From positions 2,659,711 through 2,723,710 of the forward strand of contig NZ_JAQNDO010000001.1 of the NCBI RefSeq assembly GCF_028369105.1: 64,000 nucleotides of DNA. The letters run 5' to 3'. The notes beneath the pieces were generated by a model. The model did not search any database. It saw only the letters and a program-made list of their open reading frames with translations, and was not told the DNA's origin. Within the stretch, counting starts at the first letter, position 1, and each line of letters opens with the position of its first letter. Both the position numbers and the translations under genes were made by a program. This document shows positions 5,446 to 36,145 of the stretch, piece after piece. Source of the stretch: Polyangium mundeleinium (lineage in GTDB: Bacteria; Myxococcota_A; Polyangia; Polyangiales; Polyangiaceae).

Positions 5446-6630
<1,185 letters not shown>

Positions 6631-6634
6631 CGCC

Positions 6635-7489: not shown

Positions 7490-7558
7490 CTCTTCCCGCC
7501 GGGGCCGGGCCGGCCTAGGCTGCCTCCGCTCGCCGTCTCTCGGGTGGAGGAACGCTTG

Positions 7559-12201: not shown

Positions 12202-13890
12202 ATGACTTCAGCCCGGCTCAAGCACACAGCGTTCGTTGCGTTTGCGCTTCTCCTCGTTCCGGGAGTCCTTGCGGTCTCCTGCTCGGCGACGTCGAACCGG
12301 AACGAGTTCGGCGACGGTGGCGCGGGTGGCGAAGGGCCGGGTGGTCCGGGCGGGCCGGGCAGCGGCGGCATGGGCGGCGACATCTTCGTTGGTTCGGGTG
12401 GTTCGGGGGGGCTCGGCGGCGGGGATCCCGGCGTCGATCCGACGACGTGCGACGAGGCCGCGGCGGCGCGCACGTACATCGGCTGCGACTTCTGGCCGAC
12501 GGTCGTGGCGAACAACGTCTGGTCGATCTTCGACTACGCGGTCGTCGTGGCGAACGCGGGGGATCAGCCTGCCGAGGTCACGGTCACGCGTGGCGCCAAC
12601 ACCATCGCCACCGCGACCGTCCCGCCGAACGACCTCGCGAAGATCTACCTGCCGTGGGTGCCCGAGCTGAAGGGCCCGGACGCCAACGAGTGTGGCAGCG
12701 CCACGCCGCTTTCGAGCACGGTGCGCGTGCCGGACGGCGCTTATCACCTCGTGACCACGCGCCCCGTCACGGTCTACCAGTTCAGCGCGCTCGAGTACGG
12801 CCCGCAGGGTGGACCGCCCGGCAAGGACTGGAGCTCGTGCCCTGGGCAGTTTTGCTCCTTCCCCGGTCCCCTGGAGTGTTTCTCCTACTCGAACGACGCC
12901 TCGCTCCTGCTCCCGAGCACGGCCATGACCGGCAACTACCGCATCACGAGCTACAAGGGGTGGGCTGGCGCGAACATCGGCGCTTACTTCGCCGTCACGG
13001 GCACGCAGGATGGCACGAGCGTGCAGGTCAAGGTCTCGGGCAAGGGGGAGATCGTCGGCGGCGGCGGCGTGCCGAGCACCGCGGCGAACGGCCTCGCGAC
13101 CTTCCCCGTCAATCGCGGCGAGGTCGTCGAGGTCCTCTTCGCGCCGACCTCCGATCCGGCGGGCTCGCTCGTCTACGCGGACAAACCCGTCCAGGTCATC
13201 GCGGGGATCCCGTGCACGCAGATGCCCGAAGGCGTGGTGGCGTGTGATCACATCGAGGAGTCCGTCTTCCCCGCCGAGACGCTCGGCAAGCGGTACTTCG
13301 TCACGGTCCCGACCTCGCCGGGCGGCGGCCCTGTCGGCCACGTCGTGCGAATCTTCGGCAACGTCAACGGCACCAAGCTCACCTACCCGGGCACGACGCC
13401 GCCGGGCGCGCCGCTCAGCATCAACGCGGGCCAGGTCTTCGACCTCGGCCAGGTAGGCGCGGACTTCGAGATCGTCGGTGATCACGAGTTCGCTGTCGCC
13501 TCCTTCCAGCTTGGCACCGAGCTCGTCGATCTGTTCGGCGATAAGGGGGATCCTGCGCAGAGCCTCGCCACGGCCGTCGAGCAATATCGCCTGAAGTATA
13601 TCTTCCTCGCGCCGAGCGATTACGACGTGAACTACGTCGACGTCGTGCAGCCGCTGTCGGCGACGGTGACGCTCGACGGCCAGGTGGTGGCGCAGTCGCC
13701 GACGCCGATCAGCTCGGCCTACGGCATCGTGCGTCTCCAGCTCGGGCCTGGAAAGAACGGCGCGCACGTGCTCACCGCGACGGAGCCGGTGGGCATCCAG
13801 GTCATGGGGTACGGCTCTGCCACGAGTTACCAGTACCCCGGCGGCCTGAATCTCGGCACCATCGCGCCGCCCCCGCCCCCGCCCAAGTGA
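12202..13890 (+). CDS. IgGFc-binding-domain-like lipoprotein
   Basis: A 562-residue exported protein with a signal peptide ending near 'VLAVSC', then a Gly-rich spacer of about 40 residues, then a large beta-rich region. That region resembles the IgGFc_binding N-terminal family common in myxobacteria and metazoan mucus proteins. Visible features include 'GCDFWPTVVANNVWSIFDYAV' and repeated 'PVTVYQFSALEY' and 'FAVTGTQDGTSVQ' type strands. It is probably surface-exposed; binding partners are unknown, and the family name comes from animal homologues, so it says nothing about antibody binding here. It ends in a short proline run and is followed 33 bp later by a small lipoprotein gene. Confidence 0.8.
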   Translation: MTSARLKHTAFVAFALLLVPGVLAVSCSATSNRNEFGDGGAGGEGPGGPGGPGSGGMGGDIFVGSGGSGGLGGGDPGVDPTTCDEAAAARTYIGCDFWPTVVANNVWSIFDYAVVVANAGDQPAEVTVTRGANTIATATVPPNDLAKIYLPWVPELKGPDANECGSATPLSSTVRVPDGAYHLVTTRPVTVYQFSALEYGPQGGPPGKDWSSCPGQFCSFPGPLECFSYSNDASLLLPSTAMTGNYRITSYKGWAGANIGAYFAVTGTQDGTSVQVKVSGKGEIVGGGGVPSTAANGLATFPVNRGEVVEVLFAPTSDPAGSLVYADKPVQVIAGIPCTQMPEGVVACDHIEESVFPAETLGKRYFVTVPTSPGGGPVGHVVRIFGNVNGTKLTYPGTTPPGAPLSINAGQVFDLGQVGADFEIVGDHEFAVASFQLGTELVDLFGDKGDPAQSLATAVEQYRLKYIFLAPSDYDVNYVDVVQPLSATVTLDGQVVAQSPTPISSAYGIVRLQLGPGKNGAHVLTATEPVGIQVMGYGSATSYQYPGGLNLGTIAPPPPPPK

Positions 13891-13923
13891 TCGTCGGGAA
13901 AATCAGTTATTCTTCGACGCACT

Positions 13924-14445
13924 GTGTCTTCACGCAGAGCGTTCGTCTTCAGCTTAGGGCTTCTGGGGGCCGTCCTTGCAGGACTTTCGGCGTGTGAGAA
14001 GCCCAAACCTCCACCGCCCGATGTGGACGGAGGACATGGCGGCGAGGGGGGTTGTCCCGTACGACCTCCCGAGCCGCTCTTCGTCCTCGACGTCCGCGCG
14101 GATGGCGAGCCCCTCCCGCCGGATCTGCGCATCGTCGTCGAGTGGAGCGCCGGCGATGAACCGCCGTTCGACCTGTCCGACGCGACGACGTGGAAGACGC
14201 TCGACGACGGCGCGAACTTCGTTTGCAACGTCGATCGAACCAAGCCACCGCCCACGGATCTCGCGGCCCTCCTGTGCGAGCTCTGGACGAGCGGCCCGGT
14301 GAACGTGCTCGTCACGGCCGAGGGGTTCGAGCCACACGCCGAGACGCTCCAGCCCGCGATGAGCGAGCTCTGCGGCACGCTCACGCCGATGGAGGTGGCC
14401 ATCCTGCTCTCGCGTGCGAAGATGGACGCCGGCGCGACGCCCTGA
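13924..14445 (+). CDS. Small lipoprotein, function unknown
   Basis: A 173-residue product starting with GTG at 13924. The N-terminus is a lipoprotein signal ending in 'LAGLSACEK', followed by a Pro/Gly/His linker. The mature domain (about 55-165) looks beta-rich, with three Cys, and I do not recognise it. A TTATTC hexamer 11 bp upstream of the start may be its -10. It is followed 19 bp later by an inner-membrane DUF6544-like gene. Confidence 0.6.
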   Translation: MSSRRAFVFSLGLLGAVLAGLSACEKPKPPPPDVDGGHGGEGGCPVRPPEPLFVLDVRADGEPLPPDLRIVVEWSAGDEPPFDLSDATTWKTLDDGANFVCNVDRTKPPPTDLAALLCELWTSGPVNVLVTAEGFEPHAETLQPAMSELCGTLTPMEVAILLSRAKMDAGATP

Positions 14446-14464
14446 AAGGAAGGCGAAGGAGCGG

Positions 14465-15322
14465 ATGGCTTCTCGTGGCGGCGGCAGGTTGATCCCCCGC
14501 ATCGTCTACGGGGTCACGGGCACGTTGTTCGGCGGCGCGGTTTTCCTCGCGGGCCGGCGGCTTTATGGCGACCGCGTCCTCCAGCGAAGGTGGCGCGCGC
14601 TCCTGCCCCGGCCGAGCGAAGGTCGCTTCGATCCTCGCGAGCTCGACGACCTGCCCGAGCCCGTGGCCCGTTACTTCCGGCATGCGCTCGCGGAGGGGGC
14701 GCCCCTCGATCCTGCCGTGCGCCTCGCGATTCGCGGCGAGATGCGCCTGTCGCCGACGGACGCGTGGCGATCGATGGAGGCCGAAGCGCTCCTCGCGCCG
14801 CCGCGCGGGTTCGTCTGGAAGGCGGCGGTCGGCGCGGGGGGCAGCCGTTTCGTGGGGTCCGACTGGCTCGAAGGCGAGGACGCGGGCAGCGAGTTTTATG
14901 CGATCGGCGCGCTCCCCGTGGCGCATGCGCGGGGCCTCGACGTGCGCCGTTCTGCGGCGGGCCGGCTCGCGCTCGAATCGATCCTCTCGCCGGCGTCGCT
15001 GCTCCCTTCGCGGGGCGTGCGCTGGGAGGTCGAGGGGCCCGACGCGATCCGCGCGACGCTTCGGATTGCGGGCGAACCGCACACCGTGGCGATCACCATC
15101 GACGACGCGGGCGCGGTGCGCTCGGCGAGCCTGCTTCGCTGGTCGAACCAGACCAAGGACAAGCGCTTCACGTGGATCCCGTTCGGGGTCGACGTCGACG
15201 AGGAGCGCACCGAGGGCGGCCTCACCATCCCTTCGCGTGTCCGCGTCGCGTACTGGCACGGAACGGAACAGCGCTTCGAGTTTTATCGCGCCGAACAGCG
15301 GATCGTCCCCCTGGGTGGATGA
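14465..15322 (+). CDS. DUF6544-like membrane-anchored protein
   Basis: A 285-residue protein with an N-terminal hydrophobic segment ('VYGVTGTLFGGAVFLAGRRL') and then a soluble domain. The arrangement 'PVARYFRHAL', a 'RGEMRLSPTDAW' strand, 'PPRGFVWKA', and late 'VTIDDAGAVRSA' and 'PSRVRVAYWHGTE' strands resembles the uncharacterised DUF6544 family, probably a lipid- or ligand-binding beta fold. The ATG at 14465 has a purine-rich AAGGA/GAAGGAG upstream. The function is unknown. Confidence 0.6.
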   Translation: MASRGGGRLIPRIVYGVTGTLFGGAVFLAGRRLYGDRVLQRRWRALLPRPSEGRFDPRELDDLPEPVARYFRHALAEGAPLDPAVRLAIRGEMRLSPTDAWRSMEAEALLAPPRGFVWKAAVGAGGSRFVGSDWLEGEDAGSEFYAIGALPVAHARGLDVRRSAAGRLALESILSPASLLPSRGVRWEVEGPDAIRATLRIAGEPHTVAITIDDAGAVRSASLLRWSNQTKDKRFTWIPFGVDVDEERTEGGLTIPSRVRVAYWHGTEQRFEFYRAEQRIVPLGG

Positions 15323-15505
15323 ATATTTCCCCACCCGGTCCGTTCTTGATCCATCCCCGTATGTTGCGTCTCCTGACGTCCCGGCCCGTAACGGCGAAAA
15401 ATCGTGAGGATACGGTAATTTCTCACGACCGTTCCGGGTGCGCAGCGGGTGTTGACGTCTGGCACGGGACGTGCTGAAAAGAAATCACGTAGGAGGACGG
15501 TCGTC

Positions 15506-15907
15506 ATGAAGAAAGCCCTTTCGCTCGCTGCTGTTGCTATCCTCGCTTTTGCCGGCGCCGCATTCGCGGGCGACAAGTACGACCTCAAGATTTCGCCCGC
15601 GTCCGGCAAGTCCGGCGACAAGGCCACGGCGACCGTGACCATCAAGGCCAAGGGCGAGTATCACGTCAACCTCGAGTACCCGCACAAGCTCATTCTCAAG
15701 GCGCCGGACGGCGTGACGGTCGAGAAGGCGAAGCTCGTCGCGGCGGACGCGAAGGTTTCGAAGGAAGAGCTGAGCTTCACCGTGGTCGCGACGGCCGCCG
15801 CGCCCGGCAAGAGGACCATCGAGGCGGAGCTCAAGGGCGCGGTTTGCACGGAGAAGACGTGCGAGCCGTTCTCCGAGACGATCTCGATCCCCGTCGACGC
15901 GAAGTGA
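15506..15907 (+). CDS. Small periplasmic immunoglobulin-like protein, DsbD-alpha-like
   Basis: A 133-residue exported protein with a clean signal peptide ('LAFAGAAFAG') and a compact all-beta domain. The pair of Cys in 'AVCTEKTCEP', followed by a C-terminal strand, resembles the redox edge of the DsbD N-terminal (alpha) domain. It could accept electrons from a DsbD-type membrane protein, and the DsbD-like gene at 44216-45571 lacks its own alpha domain; the pairing is inference. The ATG at 15506 is fixed by AGGAGG 10 nt upstream. A strong bidirectional hairpin follows the gene. Confidence 0.6.
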   Translation: MKKALSLAAVAILAFAGAAFAGDKYDLKISPASGKSGDKATATVTIKAKGEYHVNLEYPHKLILKAPDGVTVEKAKLVAADAKVSKEELSFTVVATAAAPGKRTIEAELKGAVCTEKTCEPFSETISIPVDAK

Positions 15908-15945
15908 GTTTTTCGCGGCGCTCTCCGGAGCGCGCGTGAAATGAA

Positions 15946-15974
15946 AAAGCGCCGTCCCTTTCGGGCGGCGCTTT
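15946..15974. terminator. Bidirectional intrinsic terminator
   Basis: A 12-bp stem (15946-15957 with 15963-15974, one G-U pair) and a 5-nt loop. An A-run lies on one side and a T-rich run on the other, exactly between two converging genes. It can terminate both. Confidence 0.85.
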
Positions 15975-15999
15975 CGTTTTCGAACGTTCGAGCGAGCCC

Positions 16000-17571
16000 T
16001 CAGGCCGGCGCGATGACGAGCCCTTCGCCGCTGGGGAGCGCCGGCGCCGGTTTGCCGGCCATGATTGCGTGTATCGCCTCGATGTCCGCGGCCGAGGGAC
16101 AGCCCCAGCCGGCTTGATACTCGAACACCGAGGCCGCCGAGCGCGCGTGCAGCCGATCGTCGAGGATCTCCAGCTCGTCGAGCGTCACCAGCGCCGGATG
16201 CGGCACGCCGCAGGCCCGCGCGAGCTGCAGCAGCTCCTTGCGCAGGCTCGTCACGTAATTCGCGAATCGGGCAGCTTTGTCCGTCGGATCGAGCCCACGC
16301 ACGAGCCAGCGGCTTTGCGTGGCGACGCCCGTGGGGCAACGGCCCGTGTGGCACTCCTGGGCCTGGATGCAGCCGATCGAGAGCATCGCCTCGCGCGCCA
16401 CGTTCACCATGTCGCAGCCAAGCGCGAACGCGAGAAGCGAAGCGTGCGGGAAGCCGAGTTTGCCCGAGCCGATGAAGACCACGTCCTCGGCGATCCCGGC
16501 CTCCGCGAACGTACGATAGATGCGGCTCATCCCGATCTTGAAGGGCAGCGCCACGTGGTCGCTGAACACGAGCGGGGCCGCGCCCGTGCCGCCTTCGCCG
16601 CCGTCGATCGTGATGAAATCGACGCCCCGATCGCCGCGCGTCATGAGCTTCGCGAGCTCGTGCCAGAACTTCTCCTGACCGACCGCCGATTTGATCCCCA
16701 CGGGCAGGCCCGACGCTGCGGCGAGCTTCTCCACGAAATCGAGCAGCTCGTCGGCCGAGGAGAACGCCGTGTGCGCGGCGGGGCTGATGCAGGTTTCTCC
16801 GATCGGAATGCCGCGGATCTTCGCGATCTCGGCCGTCACCTTCGCGCCTGGCAAGACGCCGCCGAGGCCGGGCTTCGCGCCCTGGCTCAGCTTGATCTCG
16901 ATCGCGCGGATCGGCGCCGACGCGACCGTCTCCAGGAATCGCTCCATGCTGAAGCGCCCCTGCTCGTCGCGGCAGCCGAAATACCCCGTGCCGATTTGCC
17001 AGACGAGGTCCCCGCCGTGCCGGTGGTGCGGCGATACGCCGCCCTCGCCGGTGTTCTGCATGGCGCCCGCGATCTTCGCGCCGCGGTTGATCGCCTCGAC
17101 GGCCGCGCCGGAGAGCGAGCCGTAGCTCATCGCCGACGAGTTGATCACCGAATTCGCGCGAAATGCCTTCTTCCGGCCCCGCTTGCCGCCGAGCACCTTC
17201 GCGCAGGGCACCCGGTAGCCCGGATCGTAGCCGGGCTCGCCCGCGTGCAGCTCCGGCAGCGGGAACGCCGCGTGCTTGACGATGAGGTAGTTCGGGCTCT
17301 GCTCCAGGTCGTTGTCCGTGCCGAACCCGAAGTAGTTGTTCTCTTTTTTCGCCGATGAGTAGATCCACCGGCGCTGATCACGGCTGAAGGGGCGCTCTTC
17401 GTCGTTGTTCGTGACGATGTATTGCCGCAGCTCCGGCCCCACCGCTTCGAGCAGGTAGCGGAAATGCCCAATGATCGGGAAATTGCGAAGGATCGCGTGT
17501 TTCGTTTGCGTCACGTCGTAGATCGCGACGGCGACGACGAGGACGGCGAAGACGGCCAGGATGATCCACAC
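16000..17571 (-). CDS. Membrane-anchored FMN-binding glutamate-synthase-like protein
   Basis: A 523-residue protein with an N-terminal transmembrane helix (about 1-22), then a glutamate synthase central/FMN barrel domain. The FMN-site glycine-rich 'DGGEGGTGAAPLV' lies near residue 320, and the CIQAQECHTGRC cluster near 398-410 matches the C-x5-C-x4-C 3Fe-4S signature of GltB. The glutaminase and GltD parts are absent, so it is not a complete glutamate synthase. Stand-alone members of this family are common oxidoreductases of unknown substrate. An ATG start at 17571 is followed immediately by the hydrophobic anchor. Confidence 0.88.
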   Translation of the reverse strand: MWIILAVFAVLVVAVAIYDVTQTKHAILRNFPIIGHFRYLLEAVGPELRQYIVTNNDEERPFSRDQRRWIYSSAKKENNYFGFGTDNDLEQSPNYLIVKHAAFPLPELHAGEPGYDPGYRVPCAKVLGGKRGRKKAFRANSVINSSAMSYGSLSGAAVEAINRGAKIAGAMQNTGEGGVSPHHRHGGDLVWQIGTGYFGCRDEQGRFSMERFLETVASAPIRAIEIKLSQGAKPGLGGVLPGAKVTAEIAKIRGIPIGETCISPAAHTAFSSADELLDFVEKLAAASGLPVGIKSAVGQEKFWHELAKLMTRGDRGVDFITIDGGEGGTGAAPLVFSDHVALPFKIGMSRIYRTFAEAGIAEDVVFIGSGKLGFPHASLLAFALGCDMVNVAREAMLSIGCIQAQECHTGRCPTGVATQSRWLVRGLDPTDKAARFANYVTSLRKELLQLARACGVPHPALVTLDELEILDDRLHARSAASVFEYQAGWGCPSAADIEAIHAIMAGKPAPALPSGEGLVIAPA

Positions 17572-25425: not shown

Positions 25426-26456
25426 ATGAGCTCCGCGAACGACATCGTGCTCGAGACGCGCCCCCTTGGTTTTCCCTGGGAGACGGCCGATCCCTTCCTC
25501 TTTTGCGTGCACCACGACGACGCGTACCCCGCGGGCAACGAGCGCATGGGGCCGGCCGCGTCGCTCGCGGGGCGCAACATCGGCCAGGATTTCGCCGGCA
25601 AGGACGGCTGGCGGATGTACCACGGCGAGGTCGTGCCCGCTTCCCGCAGCACCCGCACCGCGGCTTCGAGACGGTGACGATCGTGCGGCGCGGGCTCATC
25701 GATCACGCGGACTCGCTCGGCGCGGCGGCGCGCTTCGGCGCGGGCGACGTGCAATGGCTGACGGCGGGCGGGGGCATCGTCCATTCCGAGATGTTCCCGC
25801 TGCTCGATCGGGCGAACCCGAACCCGGCCGAGCTGTTTCAGATCTGGCTGAACCTGCCGGCGGAGGACAAACTCGTGCCGCCGCACTTCGCGATGCTGTG
25901 GAGCGATACGATCCCGCGGTGCGTTTTTCTCGACGAGGCGGGGCGAGCCACGGAGGTGACGGTGATCGCGGGTTCGCTCGACGGGAAACGTGCGCCGGCG
26001 CCGCCGCCGAAGTCGTGGGCGTCGCGTCCGGACACGGATGTGGCGATCTGGAGCATTCGAATGGCCCCGGGCGCCACGTGGACGCTGCCGAAGGCGGCGC
26101 ACCCGCAATCGGTGCGGACGTTGTATTTCTTCCAGGGCGCGTCCTTGCAAATCGGGGAGCAGGCGCTCACGGGGCACGTGGCGGCGCGGGTCCGGAGCAA
26201 CGTGGATGTGCGGCTCCAGGCCGGCGACACGGAGACCGAGATCCTGCTCTTGCAGGGGCGCCCGATCGGGCAGCCGGTGGTGCAATACGGTCCGTTCGTG
26301 ATGAACACCCGCGAGCAGATCCAGCGCGCGATGATGGATTACCAGCGGACCCGCTTCGGCGGGTGGCCGTGGCCGAGCGACGACCCGGTGCATGGGCGCG
26401 AGGAAGGTCGGTTCGCGCGGCATGCGGATGGACGGATGGAGCGGGTCGGGGGCTGA
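25426..26456 (+). pseudogene. Pirin family protein, single-base frameshift near 25640
   Basis: Frame 1 reads from ATG 25426 through pirin's N-terminal strands to 'MYHGEVVPA' and then runs into a stop at 25675-25677. The rest of the protein continues without a break in another frame from '[18 protein letters not shown]' (the metal-binding His motif) through 'GGGIVHSEMF' to the C-terminal cupin and 'MNTREQIQRAMMDYQRT'. Restoring one G in the run at 25636-25641 would give an intact 343-residue pirin. Pirins are Fe-binding cupins with quercetinase or regulatory roles. It could be a true pseudogene or a sequencing error; the downstream part keeps perfect coding character, which hints at a recent or artefactual event. 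Confidence 0.85.
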
Positions 26457-26505: not shown

Positions 26506-26534
26506 TTGACATGGTGTCGACTCGACACTAAGGT
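26506..26534 (+). promoter_or_regulatory. Sigma-70 promoter of the nrtR operon
   Basis: The -35 is TTGACA (26506-26511), with a 17-bp spacer and -10 TAAGGT (26529-26534), the best consensus promoter in the window. Predicted start of transcription is near 26541. The spacer is almost entirely a 15-bp palindrome. Confidence 0.7.
26514..26528. promoter_or_regulatory. Operator 1: palindrome GTGTCGACTCGACAC in the promoter spacer
   Basis: Perfect 7-bp arms around one central base, lying between -35 and -10. A bound dimer would exclude RNA polymerase. Its position directly upstream of an NrtR-type repressor gene suggests autoregulation. Confidence 0.6.
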
Positions 26535-26535
26535 T

Positions 26536-26552
26536 CGTGTACATCCTACACG
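26536..26552. promoter_or_regulatory. Operator 2: palindrome CGTGTA-N5-TACACG over the predicted start site
   Basis: Perfect 6-bp arms. It shares the GTGT-N7-ACAC skeleton with operator 1, and the centres are 23 bp apart, about two helical turns. It overlaps the predicted transcription start. Confidence 0.55.
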
Positions 26553-26561
26553 GACCCATTC

Positions 26562-27251
26562 ATGAGCGTGACCTACCACTACCCGCGCCCGGCGCTCGCC
26601 GTGGACTGCGTCGTGTTTGGCCTCGACGAGGAGGACCTCAAGGTCCTCCTCATTCGGCGCGGCGTCGATCCTTTCGCCGGGCGCTGGGCTTTGCCTGGCG
26701 GGTTCGTGCGCCTCGACGAGACACTCGACGAGGCCGCGCGGCGTGAGCTTCGCGAAGAGGCCGGCATCGAAAAGGTGTACCTCGAACAGCTTTATACGTT
26801 CGGGGCCGTGGACCGGGATCCACGCGAGCGTGTCGTTTCGGTGACCTATTACGCGCTCGTGAAGCTCTCCGAGCACATGGTCCGCGCCGCCACGGACGCG
26901 CGCGAGGCCGCCTGGTTTGCGATCGACGACTTGCCGCGGCTCGCGTTTGATCACGAATCCATCGTCGACAAGGCCATCACGCGCCTGCGCGGCAAGGTGC
27001 GGTATGCGCCCATCGGGTTCGAGCTCTTGCCCAAGAAGTTCACGCTCACGCAGCTCCAGCGCGTGTACGAGAAGGTGCTCGGGTACGAGCTCGACAAGCG
27101 AAACTTCCGCAAGAAAGTGGCCGCGACGGGGCTCTTGATCGAGCTCGACGAGGTGGAGCAGGACGTCGCGCATCGGGCGGCGCGGCTCTATACGTTCGAC
27201 GAGAAGACGTACCGCAAGCTCGAAAAAGAGGGCTTTTTGTTCGAGATATGA
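26562..27251 (+). CDS. nrtR: NrtR-type transcriptional regulator (Nudix domain plus winged helix)
   Basis: A 229-residue protein. Residues about 8-140 form a Nudix fold ('[30 protein letters not shown]' spans the Nudix box region), and about 150-229 form a winged-helix domain ('[22 protein letters not shown]'). This is the fold of NrtR, a repressor of NAD-synthesis genes that is released by ADP-ribose. The Nudix box appears largely intact (REL-REEAG), so residual hydrolase activity is possible. It begins at ATG 26562 without a ribosome site. It heads a run of five same-strand genes with gaps of 13-28 bp and has two palindromes in its promoter. Confidence 0.88.
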
Positions 27252-27267
27252 GGCCGGGGAGGTTGTC

Positions 27268-28092
27268 ATGCGCGTCGACGAGCGATTCGAGGTGGCCGCG
27301 GGCAGCGTGACGGGACGCTCGCACGTCCTCGCCGGGAAGCCGAATCAGGACGCGTTTGCGTTTCGTTCGGCCGAATGCGGGATCGTCGGCGTCGTGTGTG
27401 ACGGGTGCGGCAGCGGCGCGCATAACGAGATCGGGGCGGCGATCGGGGCGCGCATCCTCGCGTCGCAGGTGCTCCGCGAGATGGAGGCCGGCGCGGCGAT
27501 CGGCGAAGAGGCGACGTTCGAGCGAGTGCGGGAGCGTTTGCTCCTGGCGCTCGCTTCGGCCGCGCAGGACATGGGGATCGCACACGCGCGTGGCGTGGCC
27601 GAGTTTTTCCTGTTCACCGTGCTCGGCGTGGCGATCTCCGCCGAGCGGGCCGTTGTGTTCGGCGCCGGGGACGGGATCTTCGCCGTGGGGGACGAGGTCG
27701 TGCGGCTCGGGCCTTTCCCTGGCAATGCGCCGCCGTACCTCGGGTATGGACTCTCGGGGGCGGGGCCGCGGGTCTCGATTCATCGCGTCTTGCCCGCGTC
27801 GGCGCTCACCTCGGTGCTCGTCGGCACGGACGGCGCGGCCGATTACGATACGCTCGCAGGCGCGTTGATCCCCGGGGCGCACGGGGAGCGTGTGCCGCCG
27901 CTCCGGGCCTTCTGGTCGGAGGATCGGTACTTTCGGAACGCTGATGCGGTGCGGCGATCCCTCGCGCTCGTCAATCGGGACGTGACGCGGCCGCTTTGGG
28001 ACGAGCGGCGGCTCCACAAGGAGCCGGGGCTGCTCGAAGACGATACGACGTTGCTCGTCGTGCGCCGCAAAAAGACGAGCGCGCCGGACTAG
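27268..28092 (+). CDS. PP2C-type protein phosphatase of the NrtR operon
   Basis: A 274-residue PP2C-fold protein. Metal-binding motifs are present: 'KPNQDAF' (Asp28), 'DGCGSG' (45-50), 'GTDGAADY' (about 190) and 'EDDTTLLVV' near the C-terminus. No signal peptide or membrane segment is seen, so it is cytosolic. The Mg/Mn-dependent Ser/Thr phosphatase probably reverses the work of the kinase encoded 13 bp downstream. It differs from the second PP2C in the window (37374-38192), which has the ordinary 'DGMGGH' form. Confidence 0.8.
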   Translation: MRVDERFEVAAGSVTGRSHVLAGKPNQDAFAFRSAECGIVGVVCDGCGSGAHNEIGAAIGARILASQVLREMEAGAAIGEEATFERVRERLLLALASAAQDMGIAHARGVAEFFLFTVLGVAISAERAVVFGAGDGIFAVGDEVVRLGPFPGNAPPYLGYGLSGAGPRVSIHRVLPASALTSVLVGTDGAADYDTLAGALIPGAHGERVPPLRAFWSEDRYFRNADAVRRSLALVNRDVTRPLWDERRLHKEPGLLEDDTTLLVVRRKKTSAPD

Positions 28093-28105
28093 CAGAGGGG
28101 TTCTG

Positions 28106-30049
28106 ATGAAATGGCCGTTCGGGCTCGCCGCGAGGCGAGGACGGGAGACGTGTGCCATGGAAGTATACATCGACGACAAACGCCTTCGCGTGCGCCCACA
28201 GGCCTCGATCGGCAAGGGCGGCGAGGCGGACGTCTTCGACCTCGGCGGCGGCGTCGCGCTGAAGCTCTGGAAGGGGCCGGACCATCCGGACGTCGCCGGG
28301 GTCTCGGTCGAGGCGCGCGCGGCGGCGGACAGGCTCGCGCTCGTGCAGGAGAAGATGCCGTTTTTTCCGGCGGGATTGCCGGCGCGGGTCGCCTCGCCGC
28401 TTGCGCTCGCGAAGGACCGGAAGGGCAGCACGATCCTCGGGTACACGATGTGCTTGATCGCGGGCGCTGAGCCGCTCATGTGCCTCGGCGAGCCGGCGCG
28501 GCGCCGGGCGCTCGGGGGGGATGCCGCGGTGCGGATTCTGCGTGACCTCCGGGCGACCGTGGCGGCCCTGCATCACGCCGGCGTGGTGATCGGCGATTTC
28601 AACGATCTGAATGTGCTCGCGCGGGACGGCGAGGCGCACATCGTGGACGCGGACAGCTTTCAATTCGGCCGGTTTCCGTGCCCCGTGTACACCGAGCGAT
28701 TCGTGGATCCGCTGCTCTGCGAGACGAGCGAGCCGCGACCGCGGCCCGTGCGGCCGTTCACGGCTGCATCCGACTGGTATGCGTTCGCCGTGATGGTGAT
28801 GGGCACGCTGCTTTGCGTGGGGCCTTATGGCGGCGTGTATCGGCCGCGGGATCCGGCGAAACGTGTCCCCGAGGCGGCGCGGCCGCTCCGGCGGATCACG
28901 GTGTTCGACCCGGAGGTGCGTTATCCGAAGCCGGCGATCCCGTTCGGCGTTTTGCCGGACGATCTTTTGCATGCGCTCGCCTCGATCTTCGAGCGCGACG
29001 CGCGGGCGCCGTTTCCGCTCGCGCTGCTCGAAAACCTGCGTTTCACGGCGTGCGTGTCGTGTGGGGCCGAGCATGCACGGGTGCGTTGTCCGGTCTGTGA
29101 TCACGGCGCGGCGCGCGAGGTGATCGTCGTGCGGGGGCACGTGAAGGCATCGCGCAAATTCGCCACGTCTGGCACGATGGTCGCGGCGTCGCTCGTGGGG
29201 GACGCGCCGGCGTACGTGGTGCACGAGGGGGGCGTATACAAGCGGGAGGACGGCGCCGAGCTTTTGCGGGGGCCGCTCGACGGGGCCTTGCGGTTCTGGA
29301 TCCAGGGGAAAACCACGTTCATCGGGCGGCGCGGGCGGGTCGTGGCGTTCGAGGCCGGGCAAACCGAGCAGGCGATTGCGGTGGATGCCCTGGGGCAGGA
29401 ACCCGCATTCGTGGTGAATGATCGATATCGATGGTTCGTCCATGGAGGGCGCCTGTTCCGGCGCGCCGCGCGGCCTACCGGTTCGCCCCTCGCGGGCCTC
29501 GCGGAAGGCGCGGCGGAGCCCTGGGGCGAGGTGCTGGCCGGACAGACCCGCATCTGGGCCGGCGAGCGGCTCGGGTTCGGCTTTTACCGGGCGGGCGCGG
29601 TGTCGGTCGTGTTCACGTGGGATCCCGAGCGCCGCGGGATTCGCGATTCGGTGAAACTGCCCTGGCCGAGCGGGCAGATCGTGGCGGCGGACGCCGCGAT
29701 CGATAAAGACAGGGTTTGGTTTTTCGTGACGTATGTGCGCGCCGGTCGAACGATGAACCGGTGCGCCGTCGTGGCCGAGAGCGGCGCGCTCCTCGGCGTG
29801 GCCGAGGCCGAGGCGGGCGACGGCTCGTGGCTCGGGTCGATCGCGGGGAAAACGGCGATCGGGGGCGCTCTCCTCGTGGCCACGGACAGCGGCCTCGTGC
29901 GGGTCGAGCTCGGCCCGGGCGGGCCGGCCGAGGCGCGGCGTTTCCCGGACACCGAGCCGTTCGTGCACGAAGGCGCGCGGATCCTTGCGGGATCCGCGGG
30001 TCTCTGGGTCGTGGGGGCGCGCGAGATCACGGCGCTCGCCATGGGTTGA
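28106..30049 (+). CDS. Atypical protein kinase with zinc ribbon and C-terminal beta-repeat domain
   Basis: A 647-residue cytosolic protein. Residues about 30-300 are a protein-kinase-like fold: Gly-rich loop 'IGKGGEADVFDL' (35-46), Lys53 in 'VALKLW', a catalytic loop 'IGDFNDLNVL' (Asp164, Asn169) in place of HRDxxxxN, and 'DADS' (181-184) in place of DFG. A zinc ribbon CxxC...CxxC lies at 316-331. Residues about 340-647 contain repeated short strands ('AYVVHEGGVYKRE', 'RWFVHGGRLFRR') resembling a beta-propeller. The ATG at 28106 has AGAGGGG upstream; ATG 28157 is an alternative. It resembles kinases found with PP2C and vWA partners in TerY-type signalling triads. Confidence 0.78.
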   Translation: MKWPFGLAARRGRETCAMEVYIDDKRLRVRPQASIGKGGEADVFDLGGGVALKLWKGPDHPDVAGVSVEARAAADRLALVQEKMPFFPAGLPARVASPLALAKDRKGSTILGYTMCLIAGAEPLMCLGEPARRRALGGDAAVRILRDLRATVAALHHAGVVIGDFNDLNVLARDGEAHIVDADSFQFGRFPCPVYTERFVDPLLCETSEPRPRPVRPFTAASDWYAFAVMVMGTLLCVGPYGGVYRPRDPAKRVPEAARPLRRITVFDPEVRYPKPAIPFGVLPDDLLHALASIFERDARAPFPLALLENLRFTACVSCGAEHARVRCPVCDHGAAREVIVVRGHVKASRKFATSGTMVAASLVGDAPAYVVHEGGVYKREDGAELLRGPLDGALRFWIQGKTTFIGRRGRVVAFEAGQTEQAIAVDALGQEPAFVVNDRYRWFVHGGRLFRRAARPTGSPLAGLAEGAAEPWGEVLAGQTRIWAGERLGFGFYRAGAVSVVFTWDPERRGIRDSVKLPWPSGQIVAADAAIDKDRVWFFVTYVRAGRTMNRCAVVAESGALLGVAEAEAGDGSWLGSIAGKTAIGGALLVATDSGLVRVELGPGGPAEARRFPDTEPFVHEGARILAGSAGLWVVGAREITALAMG

Positions 30050-30077
30050 TTCGCAGAAAGAAACGAGAGGCGACATC

Positions 30078-31124
30078 ATGAACCACAAGGAACTTCCGCT
30101 GCCGGTCTTTTACGATCACAAGAGCGCCGAGAAATGGGGCCATCGTCCCAAGGAGGAGCTGCTCTTCGTGGCCGCCGAGGACTGGCGCAAGGCGCTCGAC
30201 ATCCGGCCGGCGGGCGCGGACAAGACGAACGTGCACCTCTTGCTCATCGACGTGCAGAAGGATTTTTGCCACCCCGAAGGCGCGCTCTTCGTGGCGGGGA
30301 GGAGCGGGCGGGGCGCGATCGACGATAGCCGGCGCATCGCGGAGTTCATTTACAAGAACCTCGACGTGCTCACGGCGATCACGACGACGATGGATACGCA
30401 CTTCTCGCACCAGATCTTCTTCCCGTCGTTCTGGGTGGACCGCGAGGGCAAGCCGCTGACCGCGCACCGGGTGATCACGACGCGGGACGTCGACGCAGGC
30501 GAGGTGCGGCCGAATCCGGCCATGGCGAAATGGCTCTGCGGCGGGAACTACCCGTGGCTCGTGAAGCAGGTGCGGCATTATTGCGAGGAGCTGGAGAAGG
30601 CCGGGAAGTACACGCTTTATCTGTGGCCGCCGCATTGCTTGCTCGGGAGCGACGGGCACGCGCTCGTGGGTGCGCTTCACGAGGCGAGGCTTTTTCACTC
30701 GTACGTGCGCGGGGCGCAGTCGTGGGTGGAGGTGAAGGGAGGCAATCCGCTGACGGAGAACTATTCGGTGCTCTCGCCGGAGGTGCTCACGCGGTTCGAC
30801 GGGCAGCCGCTCGGGCAAAAGAACACGCTGTTCTTGAAGACGCTGCTCGCGGCGGACGTGGTGATCATTGCGGGGCAGGCGGCGAGCCATTGCGTGAAGA
30901 GCTCGATCGACGACATCCTCGGCGAGATCGCCTCGGTCGACGCCGCGCTCGCGCGGAAGATCTACCTGCTCACCGATTGCATGTCGGCCGTGACGGTGCC
31001 GGACGGCAAGGGCGGGTTCGTGGCGGATTTCACGCCCGAAGCCGACAAGGCGCTCGCGAAGTTCGCGGCGGCGGGGATGAACCTGGTGAAGAGCACGGAC
31101 GAGATCGGGCGCTGGTTGAAATAG
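30078..31124 (+). CDS. Long nicotinamidase-like isochorismatase-family hydrolase
   Basis: A 348-residue protein with the PncA catalytic set: Asp58 ('LLIDVQKDFC'), Lys220 ('WVEVKGGNPLTENYS') and nucleophile Cys272 ('GQAASHCVKSS'). The metal ligands are Asp106 and His108 ('TMDTHFSH') and His186 ('WPPHCLLG'). Nicotinamidase converts nicotinamide to nicotinate for NAD salvage. It is much longer than ordinary PncA (about 210): about 50 extra N-terminal residues and an insertion at about 125-180. Its position under an NrtR promoter supports a role in NAD metabolism. The ATG at 30078 was chosen because homology follows; only a weak GAGAGG precedes it. Confidence 0.82.
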   Translation: MNHKELPLPVFYDHKSAEKWGHRPKEELLFVAAEDWRKALDIRPAGADKTNVHLLLIDVQKDFCHPEGALFVAGRSGRGAIDDSRRIAEFIYKNLDVLTAITTTMDTHFSHQIFFPSFWVDREGKPLTAHRVITTRDVDAGEVRPNPAMAKWLCGGNYPWLVKQVRHYCEELEKAGKYTLYLWPPHCLLGSDGHALVGALHEARLFHSYVRGAQSWVEVKGGNPLTENYSVLSPEVLTRFDGQPLGQKNTLFLKTLLAADVVIIAGQAASHCVKSSIDDILGEIASVDAALARKIYLLTDCMSAVTVPDGKGGFVADFTPEADKALAKFAAAGMNLVKSTDEIGRWLK

Positions 31125-31138
31125 GAGAGGAGGACGTC

Positions 31139-31936
31139 ATGACGAACGGGAATGGGAAGGGAAGCGAGATCCGGCGGCTCTTCGAGGCGGCGGAGGAGGA
31201 AGGGACGCTCTCGCCGGAGGCGCTCGCGGCGCTCGCGGCGATCGATATCGGGGCGCAGATCCAGGCCGGGCTCGGCGTGGGCGTCGATGACGTGCAGGCG
31301 TCCGAGGTCGTGCTCGTGACGATCATGCCGGATGATTCGGGGTCGATCCGGTTTTCCGGGAACGCCGATCTCCTGCGGGAAGGGCACAACACGGTGGTGG
31401 AGGCGCTCGCGTCGTCGAAGCAGAAGGATTCGATCCTGGCGCATACACGGTACTTGAATGGATTCGTGCTTTATCCGTACCGGCCCGTGGCGCTCGCCGA
31501 GCGGATGACCCCGAAGAACTACGATCCCACGCTGGGGACACCGCTCTACGATCAAACGGTGGTGCTCCTCGGGACGGTGATCGCCAAAGCGCAGGAGTTT
31601 GCGCAGAGCGGCGTGCCGGTGCGGAGCGTGACGTTGATCCTCACGGATGGGGCGGACGAGGGATCGTGCAGAGCCAAGGCGAGCGACGTGCGGGTGCTCG
31701 TGCGCGACATGCTGGCGAGCGAGCAGCACATCGTGGCGGCGATGGGGATCGATGATGGGCATACGCCGTTCCGGGACGTGTTCCGGGCGATGGGCATCGA
31801 GGATCGGTGGATCCTGACGCCGCGCAGTGATGCGGGGGAGATCCGGCGGGCGTTCCGGATGTTCTCGCAATCGGCGATGCGCGCGAGCCAGCACGCGGGG
31901 TTTTCGCGGGCGGCGGCGGGCGGGTTTCTCGGGTGA
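31139..31936 (+). CDS. vWA-domain protein of the NrtR operon
   Basis: A 265-residue cytosolic protein. After a 55-residue N-terminal helical region, a von Willebrand A domain begins with the MIDAS DxSxS at 65-69 ('MPDDSGSIRF'), and the later ligands lie in 'LGTPLYDQT' and 'ILTDGADE'. The ATG at 31139 is set by GGAGAGGAGG. vWA proteins paired with PP2C and kinases usually act as phospho-regulated scaffolds, and the target here is unknown. Its stop lies one base from the stop of the converging ABC permease gene, with no room for a terminator. Confidence 0.82.
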   Translation: MTNGNGKGSEIRRLFEAAEEEGTLSPEALAALAAIDIGAQIQAGLGVGVDDVQASEVVLVTIMPDDSGSIRFSGNADLLREGHNTVVEALASSKQKDSILAHTRYLNGFVLYPYRPVALAERMTPKNYDPTLGTPLYDQTVVLLGTVIAKAQEFAQSGVPVRSVTLILTDGADEGSCRAKASDVRVLVRDMLASEQHIVAAMGIDDGHTPFRDVFRAMGIEDRWILTPRSDAGEIRRAFRMFSQSAMRASQHAGFSRAAAGGFLG

Positions 31937-33784: not shown

Positions 33785-36145
33785 ATGACCGACTTCAAGG
33801 CGACCCCAACGTTACCCGATCCCCTCAGCGAGGCGCCGACAGGCCTGGTCCTTTCGAGCGCGCCAGGCGATCGCGTGGCCGGTCGATACACGCTGCTCGG
33901 CCTGCTCGGGGTCGGCGGCATGGGCAGCGTCTATCGCGCCCGCGACGAGGAGCTCGAAGAGGTCGTGGCCCTGAAGGTGCTGCGGCAAGACCTCGTGAAC
34001 GAGCCGGGGATGCTCGAACGGTTCCGCCGCGAAGTGAAGCTCGCGCGACGCGTCACCCACAAGAACGTCGCCCGCGTCTTCGACATTGGCGAGCACGGCG
34101 CCGACAAGTACCTGACCATGGAATTCGTCGAGGGCGAGCCCCTCAACGTGGGGCTCGCCCGGCAAGGCGCGATGTCGGTCGCGCGTGTCGTGGAGATCGC
34201 GACGGCGATCTGCGCAGGCCTCGCCGCCGCGCACGCCGCCGGCGTGGTGCACCGGGACCTGAAGCCCGAAAACGTGCTCCTGGCGAAGGACGGGCGCGTG
34301 GTGATCACCGATTTCGGCATCGCGCGGATGCACGAGCCCGAGGGCTCGCGGACGCAGGTCGGCGCCGTGATCGGGACACCGGCGTACATGGCGCCCGAGC
34401 AGGTGCAAGGGATCGCCGACATCGACACACGCGCGGACATCTATGCGCTCGGCGCGATGCTGTACGAGCTCTTCACGGGCGAAAAAGCGTGGCGCGGGGA
34501 GTCGATCGTGAGCGTCGCCGCGGCGCGGCTGGTGCAACCGCCGCCGGATCCTCGCGTCAAACGGCCCGATTTGCCGACGGCGTGCGGGACGATCGTCCTC
34601 AAGTGCATGGCGCGCGATCGCGACGAGCGATATCGCACGGCGCAAGAAGTGGCCGAGGAGCTGACGAGCCTGACCTTGCCGGCCATGAACAAGCTGCCCG
34701 TGACGACGCTCGTGGCGCCCGCGGCGAGCACCGGCACGCCGACGCCGGCCGCGCAGGCGGCGGCCGAGAAGGCGGTCGCGGTGCTGCCCTTCCGCAACAG
34801 CGGGCCGCCGGATGACGACTACCTCGCCGAAGGGCTCACCGACGATCTGATCGACACGCTGTCGATGACACGCGGCCTCAAGCTGCGGCCGCGCGGCGTG
34901 GTGATGCGCTGGAAGGGCGTCGATCAGGACCCGCGCGAGATCGGGCGCGAGCTCGCGGTGCAGGTCGTCGTCGAGGGGAGCGTGCGCAGGACGCCGGCGG
35001 GCATGCGCATCAGCGCACGCGTGCTCAGCGTGGCCGACGGGTTCCAGCTCTGGGCGAAGCGATTCGACCGACCAGAGAAAGATCTCTTCGTGGTGAACGA
35101 CGAGGTCGCGAAGGCGATCGCCGACGCGCTGACGGTCGACATGGCGCAGCCCGCGCGCGAGTCGCCGACGGACCCCGTGGCCGTCGAGCTCTACCTGAAG
35201 GCGCGCATCGAGTACCGGAAGTTCTGGGTGGAGCACGTGCGCGAAGCCGTGAAGCTGCTCGAACAAGCCCTCGCGCGCGCGCCGCAGGATCCGACGATCC
35301 TGTCCGGCTACGCGAGCGCGCTCGCGCGGATGTCGTTCTTCAACGGCGACAACGCCGTGCTGGCGAAACAAGCCGCCGAGCGCGCCCTCGCGGCGGCGCC
35401 GCACCTCGCCGAGGCGCACCTCGCCATGGCGCACGGGCTCTTCCAGGCCGGCGACGGGACCGGCGCGCTGCGGAGCGCGCGCCAGGCGATCACACGCGCG
35501 CCCGCGCTCGCCGAGGCCTATGGGCTGATCGGGATGATCCTGTCGGAGTCGGGTCCGCTCGACGAAGCCGCGCGCGTGCTCGAGACGGCGCGCTCGCTCG
35601 ATCCGGCGGCGCCCTCGGTGTCGCGGAACCTCGCGCGTGTCGCCGTGCTGCGCGGCGACCTGGACGGCGCGCAGAAGCTCCTCGAACAGGTGCGGGCCGT
35701 CGAGGGCGAGTTCGCGTACTTCGCAGGCGTGACGCGGTACGCGATCTGGGGCCGCGACGAGGCGCTCTCGAAGAGCGTCGCCGAGCGGCTGCGGAGCGTG
35801 AAGATCGAAGCGCCCATCCAGATGGCGATCCGCGACGCGTTCCTCGACAAGATCTCGCCGTTCGATTCGCCGATCTTCCAGCAGGCGATGGCAAACAACG
35901 AAGGCGGATGGCGACGGACCGCGTACTTCCGGCAGGTCGAGGTCGAGCTCGCGCTCTACGTGGGCGACGTGGCGCGCGCCGTCGGCTCGATCGTGCCCTG
36001 CGCGCAGAGCGGGCTCATCGATCTCCTGTGGATGGATCGTTGCCCGCTGCTCGCACCGCTCCGCGGGACACCAGAGTTCCAGGCCGCGCGCGTGATCGTC
36101 GACGAGCGGGTGTCGCGGATGCTGGAGGCGTTGCGCGCGGGTTAG
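33785..36145 (+). CDS. Ser/Thr protein kinase with TolB-like and TPR modules
   Basis: A 786-residue protein. Residues about 34-295 are a complete Hanks-type kinase: 'GVGGMGSVY' loop, 'VALKVL' Lys, 'HRDLKPENVL' and 'DFGIAR', then 'GTPAYMAPEQ'. Residues about 335-450 match the TolB/FlgO-like N-domain found fused to kinases and adenylate cyclases ('VAVLPFRNSGPPDDDYLAEGLTDDLI'). Residues about 460-760 are helical TPR-like repeats. No transmembrane segment is obvious, so it is probably cytosolic. A TAGCCT -10-like element lies 15 bp before the ATG. It is divergent from the ABC exporter genes. Confidence 0.88.
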   Translation: MTDFKATPTLPDPLSEAPTGLVLSSAPGDRVAGRYTLLGLLGVGGMGSVYRARDEELEEVVALKVLRQDLVNEPGMLERFRREVKLARRVTHKNVARVFDIGEHGADKYLTMEFVEGEPLNVGLARQGAMSVARVVEIATAICAGLAAAHAAGVVHRDLKPENVLLAKDGRVVITDFGIARMHEPEGSRTQVGAVIGTPAYMAPEQVQGIADIDTRADIYALGAMLYELFTGEKAWRGESIVSVAAARLVQPPPDPRVKRPDLPTACGTIVLKCMARDRDERYRTAQEVAEELTSLTLPAMNKLPVTTLVAPAASTGTPTPAAQAAAEKAVAVLPFRNSGPPDDDYLAEGLTDDLIDTLSMTRGLKLRPRGVVMRWKGVDQDPREIGRELAVQVVVEGSVRRTPAGMRISARVLSVADGFQLWAKRFDRPEKDLFVVNDEVAKAIADALTVDMAQPARESPTDPVAVELYLKARIEYRKFWVEHVREAVKLLEQALARAPQDPTILSGYASALARMSFFNGDNAVLAKQAAERALAAAPHLAEAHLAMAHGLFQAGDGTGALRSARQAITRAPALAEAYGLIGMILSESGPLDEAARVLETARSLDPAAPSVSRNLARVAVLRGDLDGAQKLLEQVRAVEGEFAYFAGVTRYAIWGRDEALSKSVAERLRSVKIEAPIQMAIRDAFLDKISPFDSPIFQQAMANNEGGWRRTAYFRQVEVELALYVGDVARAVGSIVPCAQSGLIDLLWMDRCPLLAPLRGTPEFQAARVIVDERVSRMLEALRAG

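Follow-up and report, generated by a model that had tools for sequence, protein, structure and literature searches.

An operon of Polyangium mundeleinium that joins an NrtR-type regulator, a nicotinamidase-like hydrolase and a kinase-PP2C-vWA unit, with relatives in large viral contigs

What could be the function of an operon in which a regulator of the NrtR type precedes a protein phosphatase, a protein kinase, a hydrolase and a von Willebrand factor A (vWA) protein? Such an operon lies in a 64,000-nucleotide stretch of the Polyangium mundeleinium genome (contig NZ_JAQNDO010000001.1, positions 2,659,711 to 2,723,710), hereafter called the window, whose numbering is used throughout; the genome that carries it measures 13.25 Mb. 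The operon comprises five genes on the plus strand (26562-31936), encoding an NrtR-type regulator, a PP2C-type phosphatase, a kinase (KIN), a nicotinamidase-like hydrolase (HYD) and a vWA-like protein. Successive genes are separated by 16, 13, 28 and 14 bp; the neighbour behind them is convergent and runs from 31938, one base past the vWA stop, so that the layout proposed by a first-pass annotation of the window (gaps of 13-28 bp, convergent gene adjoining) proved correct in its coordinates. In our view these genes probably constitute an inducible NAD-restoration module, in which ADP-ribose derepresses a dedicated, phospho-regulated nicotinamidase and of which large phages bear their own version.

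Linkage of the module in bacteria and in large viral contigs

Relatives were kept as the best 80 of at least 581 for HYD in named genomes, the best 80 of 123 for HYD in viral contigs and the best 80 of 106 for KIN in viral contigs, and the counts therefore lean to closer relatives. Profiles of KIN, PP2C and vWA were built from HYD-linked copies, and a neighbour was counted as present within 10 kb of HYD. After dereplication, 70 bacterial HYD loci (8 of them under 9 kb) contained vWA in 21 cases, KIN in 21, PP2C in 20 and all four genes in 19, these full sets being ordered PP2C-KIN-HYD-vWA. They were found in Myxococcota, Elusimicrobia, Cyanobacteria, two metagenome-assembled genomes (MAGs) labelled Parcubacteria and Yanofskybacteria, and one unassigned MAG; the HYD of Polyangium fumosum DSM 14668 (L032) is 99% identical to that of the window. 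At the level of 282 phylum genomes, HYD was detected in 33 and KIN in 26, with both in 14 (odds ratio 14.6, Fisher p 2e-8). Both genes lay on one contig in 13 of these 14 genomes; in the other one, G245, HYD is at a contig end. Matches were weaker in the 12 genomes with KIN only, none being better than E 2.3e-13.

The linkage was also found in the IMG/VR scan, which yielded 79 HYD loci, i.e. 63 after dereplication at 90% HYD identity. Among these 63, vWA was present in 59, KIN in 55, PP2C in 43 and all four genes in 43, together with NadE (18), PncB (15), NadD (8) and NadM (4). The prevailing order of the 43 full sets was HYD-vWA-PP2C-KIN (31, one with two vWA genes), followed by the bacterial order (11) and one other. 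The nearest vWA, KIN and PP2C neighbours were all on the HYD strand, and the HYD and vWA frames, on the same strand in 59 of 59 loci, were separated by a median of 7 bp when each frame is taken from stop to stop. Seeding with KIN yielded, apart from L138, 79 loci, and the 66 left after dereplication contained HYD in 62 cases, vWA in 64, PP2C in 45, NadE in 23, PncB in 21 and NadD in 12; 33 of the 79 overlapped the HYD-seeded set in DNA, and the other 46 contained HYD in 41 cases and vWA in 43. Twenty control windows of 20 kb, cut from these viral contigs at a distance from the module, contained no HYD, vWA, KIN, PP2C, PncB or NadE, and one match each to NadD, phosphoesterase and RlaP. The first-pass annotation had made its reading depend on the kinase, hydrolase and vWA genes being neighbours in other genomes; all four genes downstream of the regulator are so in 19/70 bacterial and 43/63 viral loci, and a chance neighbourhood is rejected by the locus counts, the Fisher test and the control windows.

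The NadE, PncB and NadD profiles were made from gene clusters of these loci, of which only representatives were checked with Pfam and NCBIfam. TIGR01514 (nicotinate phosphoribosyltransferase) was above its cut-off for the PncB representatives L122 and L134 and below it for L118 and L126, TIGR00552 (NAD synthase) was above cut-off for the NadE representative L126, and nicotinate-nucleotide adenylyltransferase was the best model, below cut-off, for the NadD representative L128. The L126 locus assembles PncB, NadE, HYD, vWA, KIN, NadD, an NrtR-type gene and an ADP-ribosylglycohydrolase match within about 12 kb. A census of whole contigs covered 50 of the 63 dereplicated viral loci; those outside it, mostly on short contigs, are L123, L138, L148, L156, L158, L162, L167, L168, L172, L173, L183, L186 and L187. 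Nicotinate phosphoribosyltransferase (NAPRTase) exceeded its cut-off in 28 of these 50 HYD-carrying contigs, 21 times at E <=1e-20, and the corresponding count for NAD synthase was 26. Terminase was above cut-off in 6/50 contigs, with a model that also matches 6/14 control genomes, and the Gp23 capsid in 8/50 contigs and 0/14 controls. On the L159 contig (207 kb), terminase and capsid genes occur together with the whole four-gene core, PncB and NadE. Some viral-labelled loci near bacterial copies, e.g. L116, may be host DNA.

A tree of 161 HYD proteins, computed by a quick method and containing seven long branches, implied a minimum of 10 switches of label from virus to bacterium or back, 6 of which are forced at support >=95. 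Repeated exchange is therefore favoured, with details left unsure by the long branches, and a single clade of viral HYD copies is not supported.

Several associations were seen beside the module. The viral locus L188 (389-kb contig) has two HYD matches, at 9944 and 15454, flanking vWA-PP2C-KIN. A match to an RlaP-like RNA repair nucleotidyltransferase occurs within about 10 kb of the module in 7/63 viral loci (L119, L134, L136, L160, L162, L166 and L183), and a calcineurin-like phosphoesterase match in 12/63. In eight of the 70 bacterial loci, all cyanobacterial and with neither kinase nor vWA matches (L059, L062, L064, L069, L079, L080, L081 and L082), HYD has a T4-type RNA ligase and a PNKP-like kinase-phosphatase in its vicinity, which hints that NAD salvage and RNA repair might be connected. 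On a Vibrio vulnificus plasmid (L193, 8998-10570), the gene next after a distant HYD homologue is annotated as an RNA ligase family protein, and an annotated TerD family protein is encoded on the opposite strand (13734-16295). The modules of L049 and L052, in the Parcubacteria and Yanofskybacteria bins, come with PncB, and that of L049 also with NadE and a glycohydrolase match; both may be phage contigs in bacterial bins.

Could this linkage reflect plain NAD homeostasis? The operon would then supply a second nicotinamidase, divergent but subject to the usual NrtR regulation, with kinase, phosphatase and vWA tuning the level or assembly of the enzyme and playing no part in conflict. NrtR regulation of NAD salvage is known (PMC4666351, PMC11535050), and PncB (10 loci) or NadE (8) was found near HYD in 13/70 bacterial loci, 8 of which have no kinase or vWA match (L044, L053, L054, L057, L058, L061, L074 and L105). 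Against it stand the recurrence of the core in large viral contigs and a separate pncB-pncA-Nudix cluster in the genome of the window (C1, about 7.18 Mb; Nudix gene assigned by eye), which also disfavours HYD as the sole nicotinamidase of this genome. We regard this explanation as rather unlikely, while it survives best among the alternatives.

A second explanation is a bacterial counter-conflict system against ADP-ribosylation, akin to those proposed in PMC9503650, where vWA would bind modified proteins and HYD would merely clear nicotinamide. Such systems include Nudix-HTH regulators, phosphatases and vWA proteins (PMC9503650), and an ADP-ribosylglycohydrolase match was found in 7/70 bacterial loci. 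One of them, L083 of Pseudanabaena, has two tandem ADP-ribosylglycohydrolase-like genes between PP2C and kinase (6539-8079), the first confirmed by Pfam and the second by resemblance. However, none of the seven loci is myxobacterial, the constant partner is HYD and not the glycohydrolase (in a search seeded with HYD), and the phosphatases named in the available text of PMC9503650 are not PP2C, which makes this explanation improbable.

The hydrolase and its kinase, phosphatase and vWA partners

HYD (30078-31124, 348 aa) was assigned by profile, model and invariant residues. A 27-row profile found yeast Pnc1 (E 1.6e-12) and other nicotinamidases, and the predicted structure (pLDDT 96.4) retrieved nicotinamidases or pyrazinamidases as its first 16 entries (Z 22.4-17.2, several being the same protein). 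Other members of the superfamily follow from Z 17.0, tying with the last of the 16, and one more nicotinamidase ranks lower (15.6). These matches span residues 48-348, so that about 45 N-terminal residues are extra. Six residues are invariant in 27/27 rows, namely D58, K220 and C272, which we take to be the Asp-Lys-Cys triad of nicotinamidases, and D106, H108 and H186, presumably aligned with three of the four ligands of their Asp-His-His-His metal site, whose fourth position differs in most rows. Because HYD falls below the curated nicotinamidase cut-offs, we call it nicotinamidase-like; this class is supported by fold, residues and context, and the activity is a prediction. The nicotinamidase-like hydrolase of the first-pass annotation is thus borne out by the structural matches and by the NAD salvage genes nearby. 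In L015 (1426-3432), HYD lies within a 669-aa open frame, a possible C-terminal fusion.

KIN (28106-30049, 647 aa), assigned by profile, residues and model, is composed of a kinase domain (residues 18-313 approximately), a zinc ribbon (C316-x2-C319-x8-C328-x2-C331; 29051-29098) and an all-beta C-terminal domain (about 341-646) seen in the whole-protein model. Its 38-row profile matched protein kinases of the PDB (best E 3.9e-7), and its model (pLDDT 90.2) matched kinases at Z 19.2 with an rmsd of 3.5 over 248 aligned residues; Foldseek placed LRRK2 in its first three rows, at a TM-score of at most 0.29. The kinase had been called atypical: its sequence is indeed divergent, but the usual catalytic residues K53, D164, N169 and D181 are kept and invariant in the alignment. 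The phosphatase (27268-28092, 274 aa) matches Pfam PP2C_2 (E 4.7e-16), only the first two genes of the operon having Pfam matches above cut-off. The fifth gene (31139-31936, 265 aa), assigned by invariant residues and profile, is predicted to encode a stand-alone vWA-like protein with MIDAS-like residues. D65, S67, S69, T134 and D170 are invariant in 27 rows, a D65-S67-S69/T134/D170 pattern which we equate with the MIDAS site, and a PDB search with its profile gave a single match within E 0.01, namely 4cn8 (E 1.5e-5).

Triads of vWA, PP2C and kinase are known as TerY-P from tellurite/Ter stress systems. The first-pass annotation pointed to these systems, and the three genes are indeed clustered in both cases, with HYD and NrtR added here; assignment to them is nevertheless weak, as the TerD family had no match in the genome of the window (2/14 control genomes match), and we reject a Ter system identity. 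A closer likeness is offered by the actinobacterial conflict systems of GAP1-N2 neighbourhoods, which share the three-part signalling unit and whose described kinase architecture (kinase, zinc ribbon, beta domain) matches that of KIN (PMC7159879). Here the unit is tied to a nicotinamidase-like gene and occurs in other phyla and in viral contigs, whereas the available text of PMC7159879 has no nicotinamidase.

Such triads in other systems, as well as the shortfall of HYD from the curated cut-offs and its changed metal-site position, could also suit a third explanation, in which the substrate of HYD is a different small amide or imide, turned over by isochorismatase-superfamily chemistry, the triad is TerY-P-like and the link to NAD is incidental. 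The structural ranking headed by nicotinamidases, even if its last entries tie with other superfamily members, the NAPRTase and NAD synthase found on about half of the viral contigs and the lack of a TerD match in the genome speak against it, and we hold it to be quite improbable.

The regulator and its promoter

The regulator (26562-27251, 229 aa) combines a Nudix domain with a winged helix, both recognised by Pfam above cut-off (NUDIX 82.5 bits, NrtR_WHD 96.3 bits). Its best solved match is AraR (5bs6, E 4.3e-63). The third-ranked one is 3gz5 (E 1.1e-32), presumably the NrtR of Shewanella. As the nearest solved relative by sequence is AraR, the case for ADP-ribose is argued from residues: Arg98 of SoNrtR contacts ADP-ribose and is replaced by Gly in AraR (PMC4666351), and the alignment sets RDPR of the window regulator against RDPG of AraR, the second Arg occupying the position of SoNrtR Arg98. 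The ADP-ribose-contacting Arg is thus present and ligand binding is predicted, and the same position disfavours an L-arabinose regulator. Hence the NrtR domains of the first-pass annotation are confirmed and its ADP-ribose response gains a residue, with the qualification that the nearest solved relative is AraR.

The Nudix signature (GX5EX7REUXEEXGU, residues 46-69) is intact. Impairment of this signature is usual, though not defining, in the NrtRs of NAD metabolism (PMC4666351). Among NrtR-type rows counted by profile, it is complete in 18/28 bacterial ones (including L032-L036, L038, L044, L065, L069, L075, L083, L085, L087, L089, L096 and L104) and in 4/8 viral ones. To judge from this, the window regulator may have kept the ability to hydrolyse its ligand, as may the majority of its operon-linked relatives in Myxococcota and Cyanobacteriota.

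A regulator that senses a sugar or NAD instead of ADP-ribose, with a trigger other than NAD breakdown, would agree with the AraR match and with the family members that answer to NAD or L-arabinose (PMC4666351), and is the least probable of the alternatives, considering the Arg at the SoNrtR contact position and the intact signature, which suggests a nucleotide-diphosphate ligand.

Upstream of the operon, we found the single promoter announced by the first-pass annotation as one promoter-like site, TTGACA-N17-TAAGGT (26506-26534, plus strand), made of a -35 box (TTGACA, 26506-26511) and a -10 box (TAAGGT, 26529-26534) that agrees with the consensus at 3/6 positions and is TATATT-like in some cyanobacterial copies. 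What is new here is a GTGT-N7-ACAC palindrome at the promoter of the module. One predicted operator, O1 (GTGTCGACTCGACAC, 26514-26528), lies in the 17-bp promoter spacer and a second, O2 (GTGTACATCCTACAC, 26537-26551), immediately after the -10 box, both proposed from sequence and conservation. At least one site was found in 23/27 bacterial loci with KIN or vWA (18/21 once dereplicated), against an expectation of about 0.2 per locus in shuffles that preserve single-base content only; in the four loci without it (L040, L045, L098 and L108) the contig ends before or inside PP2C. The operator follows TTGAC directly (TTGAC-N2..4-GTGT-N7-ACAC) in 20/27 of these loci, and a second operator lies 22-37 bp downstream in 18/27. 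In the genome of the window, the exact promoter and operator pattern occurs once, at this operon, and with one mismatch allowed at four sites, compared with two for a reversed control. Given this single occurrence and the other pncB-pncA-Nudix cluster, the set appears to be separately switched, a further point against plain NAD homeostasis.

The pairing of promoter and regulator is read from the DNA; a palindromic operator at the own promoter, a trait of the NrtR family, is present here as a predicted binding site. In Sorangium L034, where some 5 kb separate regulator and module, each of the two bears the operator pair, which ties them in trans; L036 has an additional operator pair just ahead of the HYD coding region. 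The operator is not a general feature of HYD loci, as only 5/53 bacterial loci with HYD but neither KIN nor vWA contain a site (L044, L050, L054, L069 and L073). Viral L112, L113 and L138 have a single GTGT-N7-ACAC about 40 bp before the HYD frame.

PADLOC matches in the window were weak, with the PDC-S07 model matching NrtR at E 2.2e-10 and the remaining ones above 0.02. A gene at 25503-26456, upstream of the operon, resembles pirin by eye and may encode such a protein, and a 786-aa open reading frame (33785-36145) may have a Ser/Thr kinase-like N-terminal part, likewise judged by eye.

Proposed mode of action and relation to known NAD systems

At rest, an NrtR-type dimer on O1 and O2 would block the promoter, as suggested by the conserved site geometry. 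Cleavage of NAD+ would raise ADP-ribose and nicotinamide, and ADP-ribose, from homology and the residue match, would loosen NrtR and turn the operon on. The regulator may also hydrolyse its inducer and reset itself, a possibility raised because the Nudix box is intact in it and in most operon-linked relatives. HYD, given its fold, residues and context, would turn nicotinamide into nicotinate to feed the deamidating route (PncB-NadD-NadE). The genome of the window has its PncB gene at another place, and many viral contigs pair the module with PncB and NadE, some also with NadD. In the weakest step of this scheme, KIN and PP2C might act as an opposed pair on the activity or assembly of HYD via vWA, the protein whose frame follows HYD most closely and which would likely serve as scaffold or phospho-target, switching HYD or determining its location. 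The plausible benefit to phages would be protection from NADase-based immunity, and to bacteria the restoration of NAD consumed by NADase toxins, ADP-ribosylation or immune enzymes.

Several observations weigh against an inducible NAD-restoration module. The full set is missing within 10 kb in 51/70 bacterial HYD loci, chiefly cyanobacterial and acidobacterial, and among the 53 HYD-only loci the operator lies near genes in L044, L050 and L069 only. HYD scores 30.4 bits against a cut-off of 174 with NCBIfam PRK11609 and 16.7 against 27 with Pfam, and at its position aligned with the remaining metal-site His, the 27 rows have Gln 14 times, Asp 12 times and His once. L-arabinose is the ligand of AraR, the solved protein closest to the regulator, and the full Nudix signature is missed by 10/28 bacterial NrtR-type rows (L006, L010, L016, L018, L037, L049, L052, the second L065 row, L074 and L108). 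On the viral side, terminase or Gp23 was found in only 11/50 contigs (176-435 kb), the viral status of the other 39 being the IMG/VR classification. The operator is not enriched in viral loci either (8 sites in 79 loci, 16 expected), so that it cannot be considered common to phages and the phage copies are mostly regulated otherwise. Finally, the evidence consists of sequence comparison and predicted structures, from which we infer activity, ligand, kinase targets and role in conflict. On balance, the earlier reading is partly supported: its linkage and hydrolase class hold, the regulator residue and the conserved operator pair agree with it, its TerY link and atypical kinase are corrected, and the viral occurrence goes beyond it.

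How does an inducible NAD-restoration module compare with known systems? NrtR-controlled salvage, e.g. pncB1-nadD2-nadE of Pseudomonas aeruginosa (PMC11535050) or that under the NrtRs of Synechocystis and Shewanella (PMC4666351), likewise places NAD salvage under a Nudix-winged-helix repressor with a predicted ADP-ribose response. The present operon differs in its intact Nudix signature, its kinase-PP2C-vWA genes and its nicotinamidase-like regulated step. An experimental precedent is found in P. aeruginosa: cells with active NatT, an NAD-depleting toxin, show derepressed NrtR-controlled salvage genes, and deletion of pncB, nadD2 or nadE aggravates its toxicity (PMC11535050). The ADP-ribosylglycohydrolase-centred host systems share a Nudix-HTH regulator, a phosphatase and vWA around ADP-ribose chemistry (PMC9503650), but the glycohydrolase is central there, the phosphatases are rhodanese-like and others, and section 3.8 of that paper, in its available text, has no nicotinamidase.

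Phages are known to carry genes that rebuild NAD+. NARP1, in the available description, reconstitutes it by Adps and Namat. NARP2 reportedly does so via nicotinamide phosphoribosyltransferase. Phage salvage by NadV, NadM and NadR has also been described, the relevant sections, as available (PMC9503650, section 3.6; PMC7824862, section 3.4.8), covering only the nicotinamide phosphoribosyltransferase route. Unlike all of these, the viral contigs analysed here combine a deamidating route, i.e. the nicotinamidase-like HYD with PncB, NadD and NadE, with kinase, PP2C and vWA. The nicotinamide phosphoribosyltransferase of the NARP2 type was not found, with no NAMPT_N match in the 50 HYD-carrying contigs (2/14 control genomes match). 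Xanthomonas phage X1, which encodes pncB, nadM, nadD and nadE with a suggested role against NAD depletion, has deamidating salvage genes as here and also NAMPT (PMC13384950, a paper of 2026); the main text of that paper never mentions nicotinamidase, isochorismatase, protein kinase, phosphatase or von Willebrand. Our literature search found no paper joining a nicotinamidase with a kinase-PP2C-vWA unit, an earlier mention not being excluded, and the combination, whose parts are known individually, is new relative to the literature examined.

A wider proposal follows, which we put forward tentatively. The phospho-regulated nicotinamidase module might be a mobile weapon of NAD warfare, serving deamidating reconstitution against NADase immunity in phages and, in bacteria, governed by a self-resetting ADP-ribose sensor with a promoter layout conserved from Myxococcota to Cyanobacteriota. 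In the same proposal, kinase, phosphatase and vWA together would form an NAD switch that works post-translationally, and no characterised counterpart of it was found. If so, a deamidating route with its own nicotinamidase, wired to kinase, phosphatase and vWA, would add to the known answers to NADase immunity, and orphan kinase-PP2C-vWA triads would gain a definite client in metabolism. Through the conserved double operator, culturable bacteria allow a direct test of the ADP-ribose trigger.

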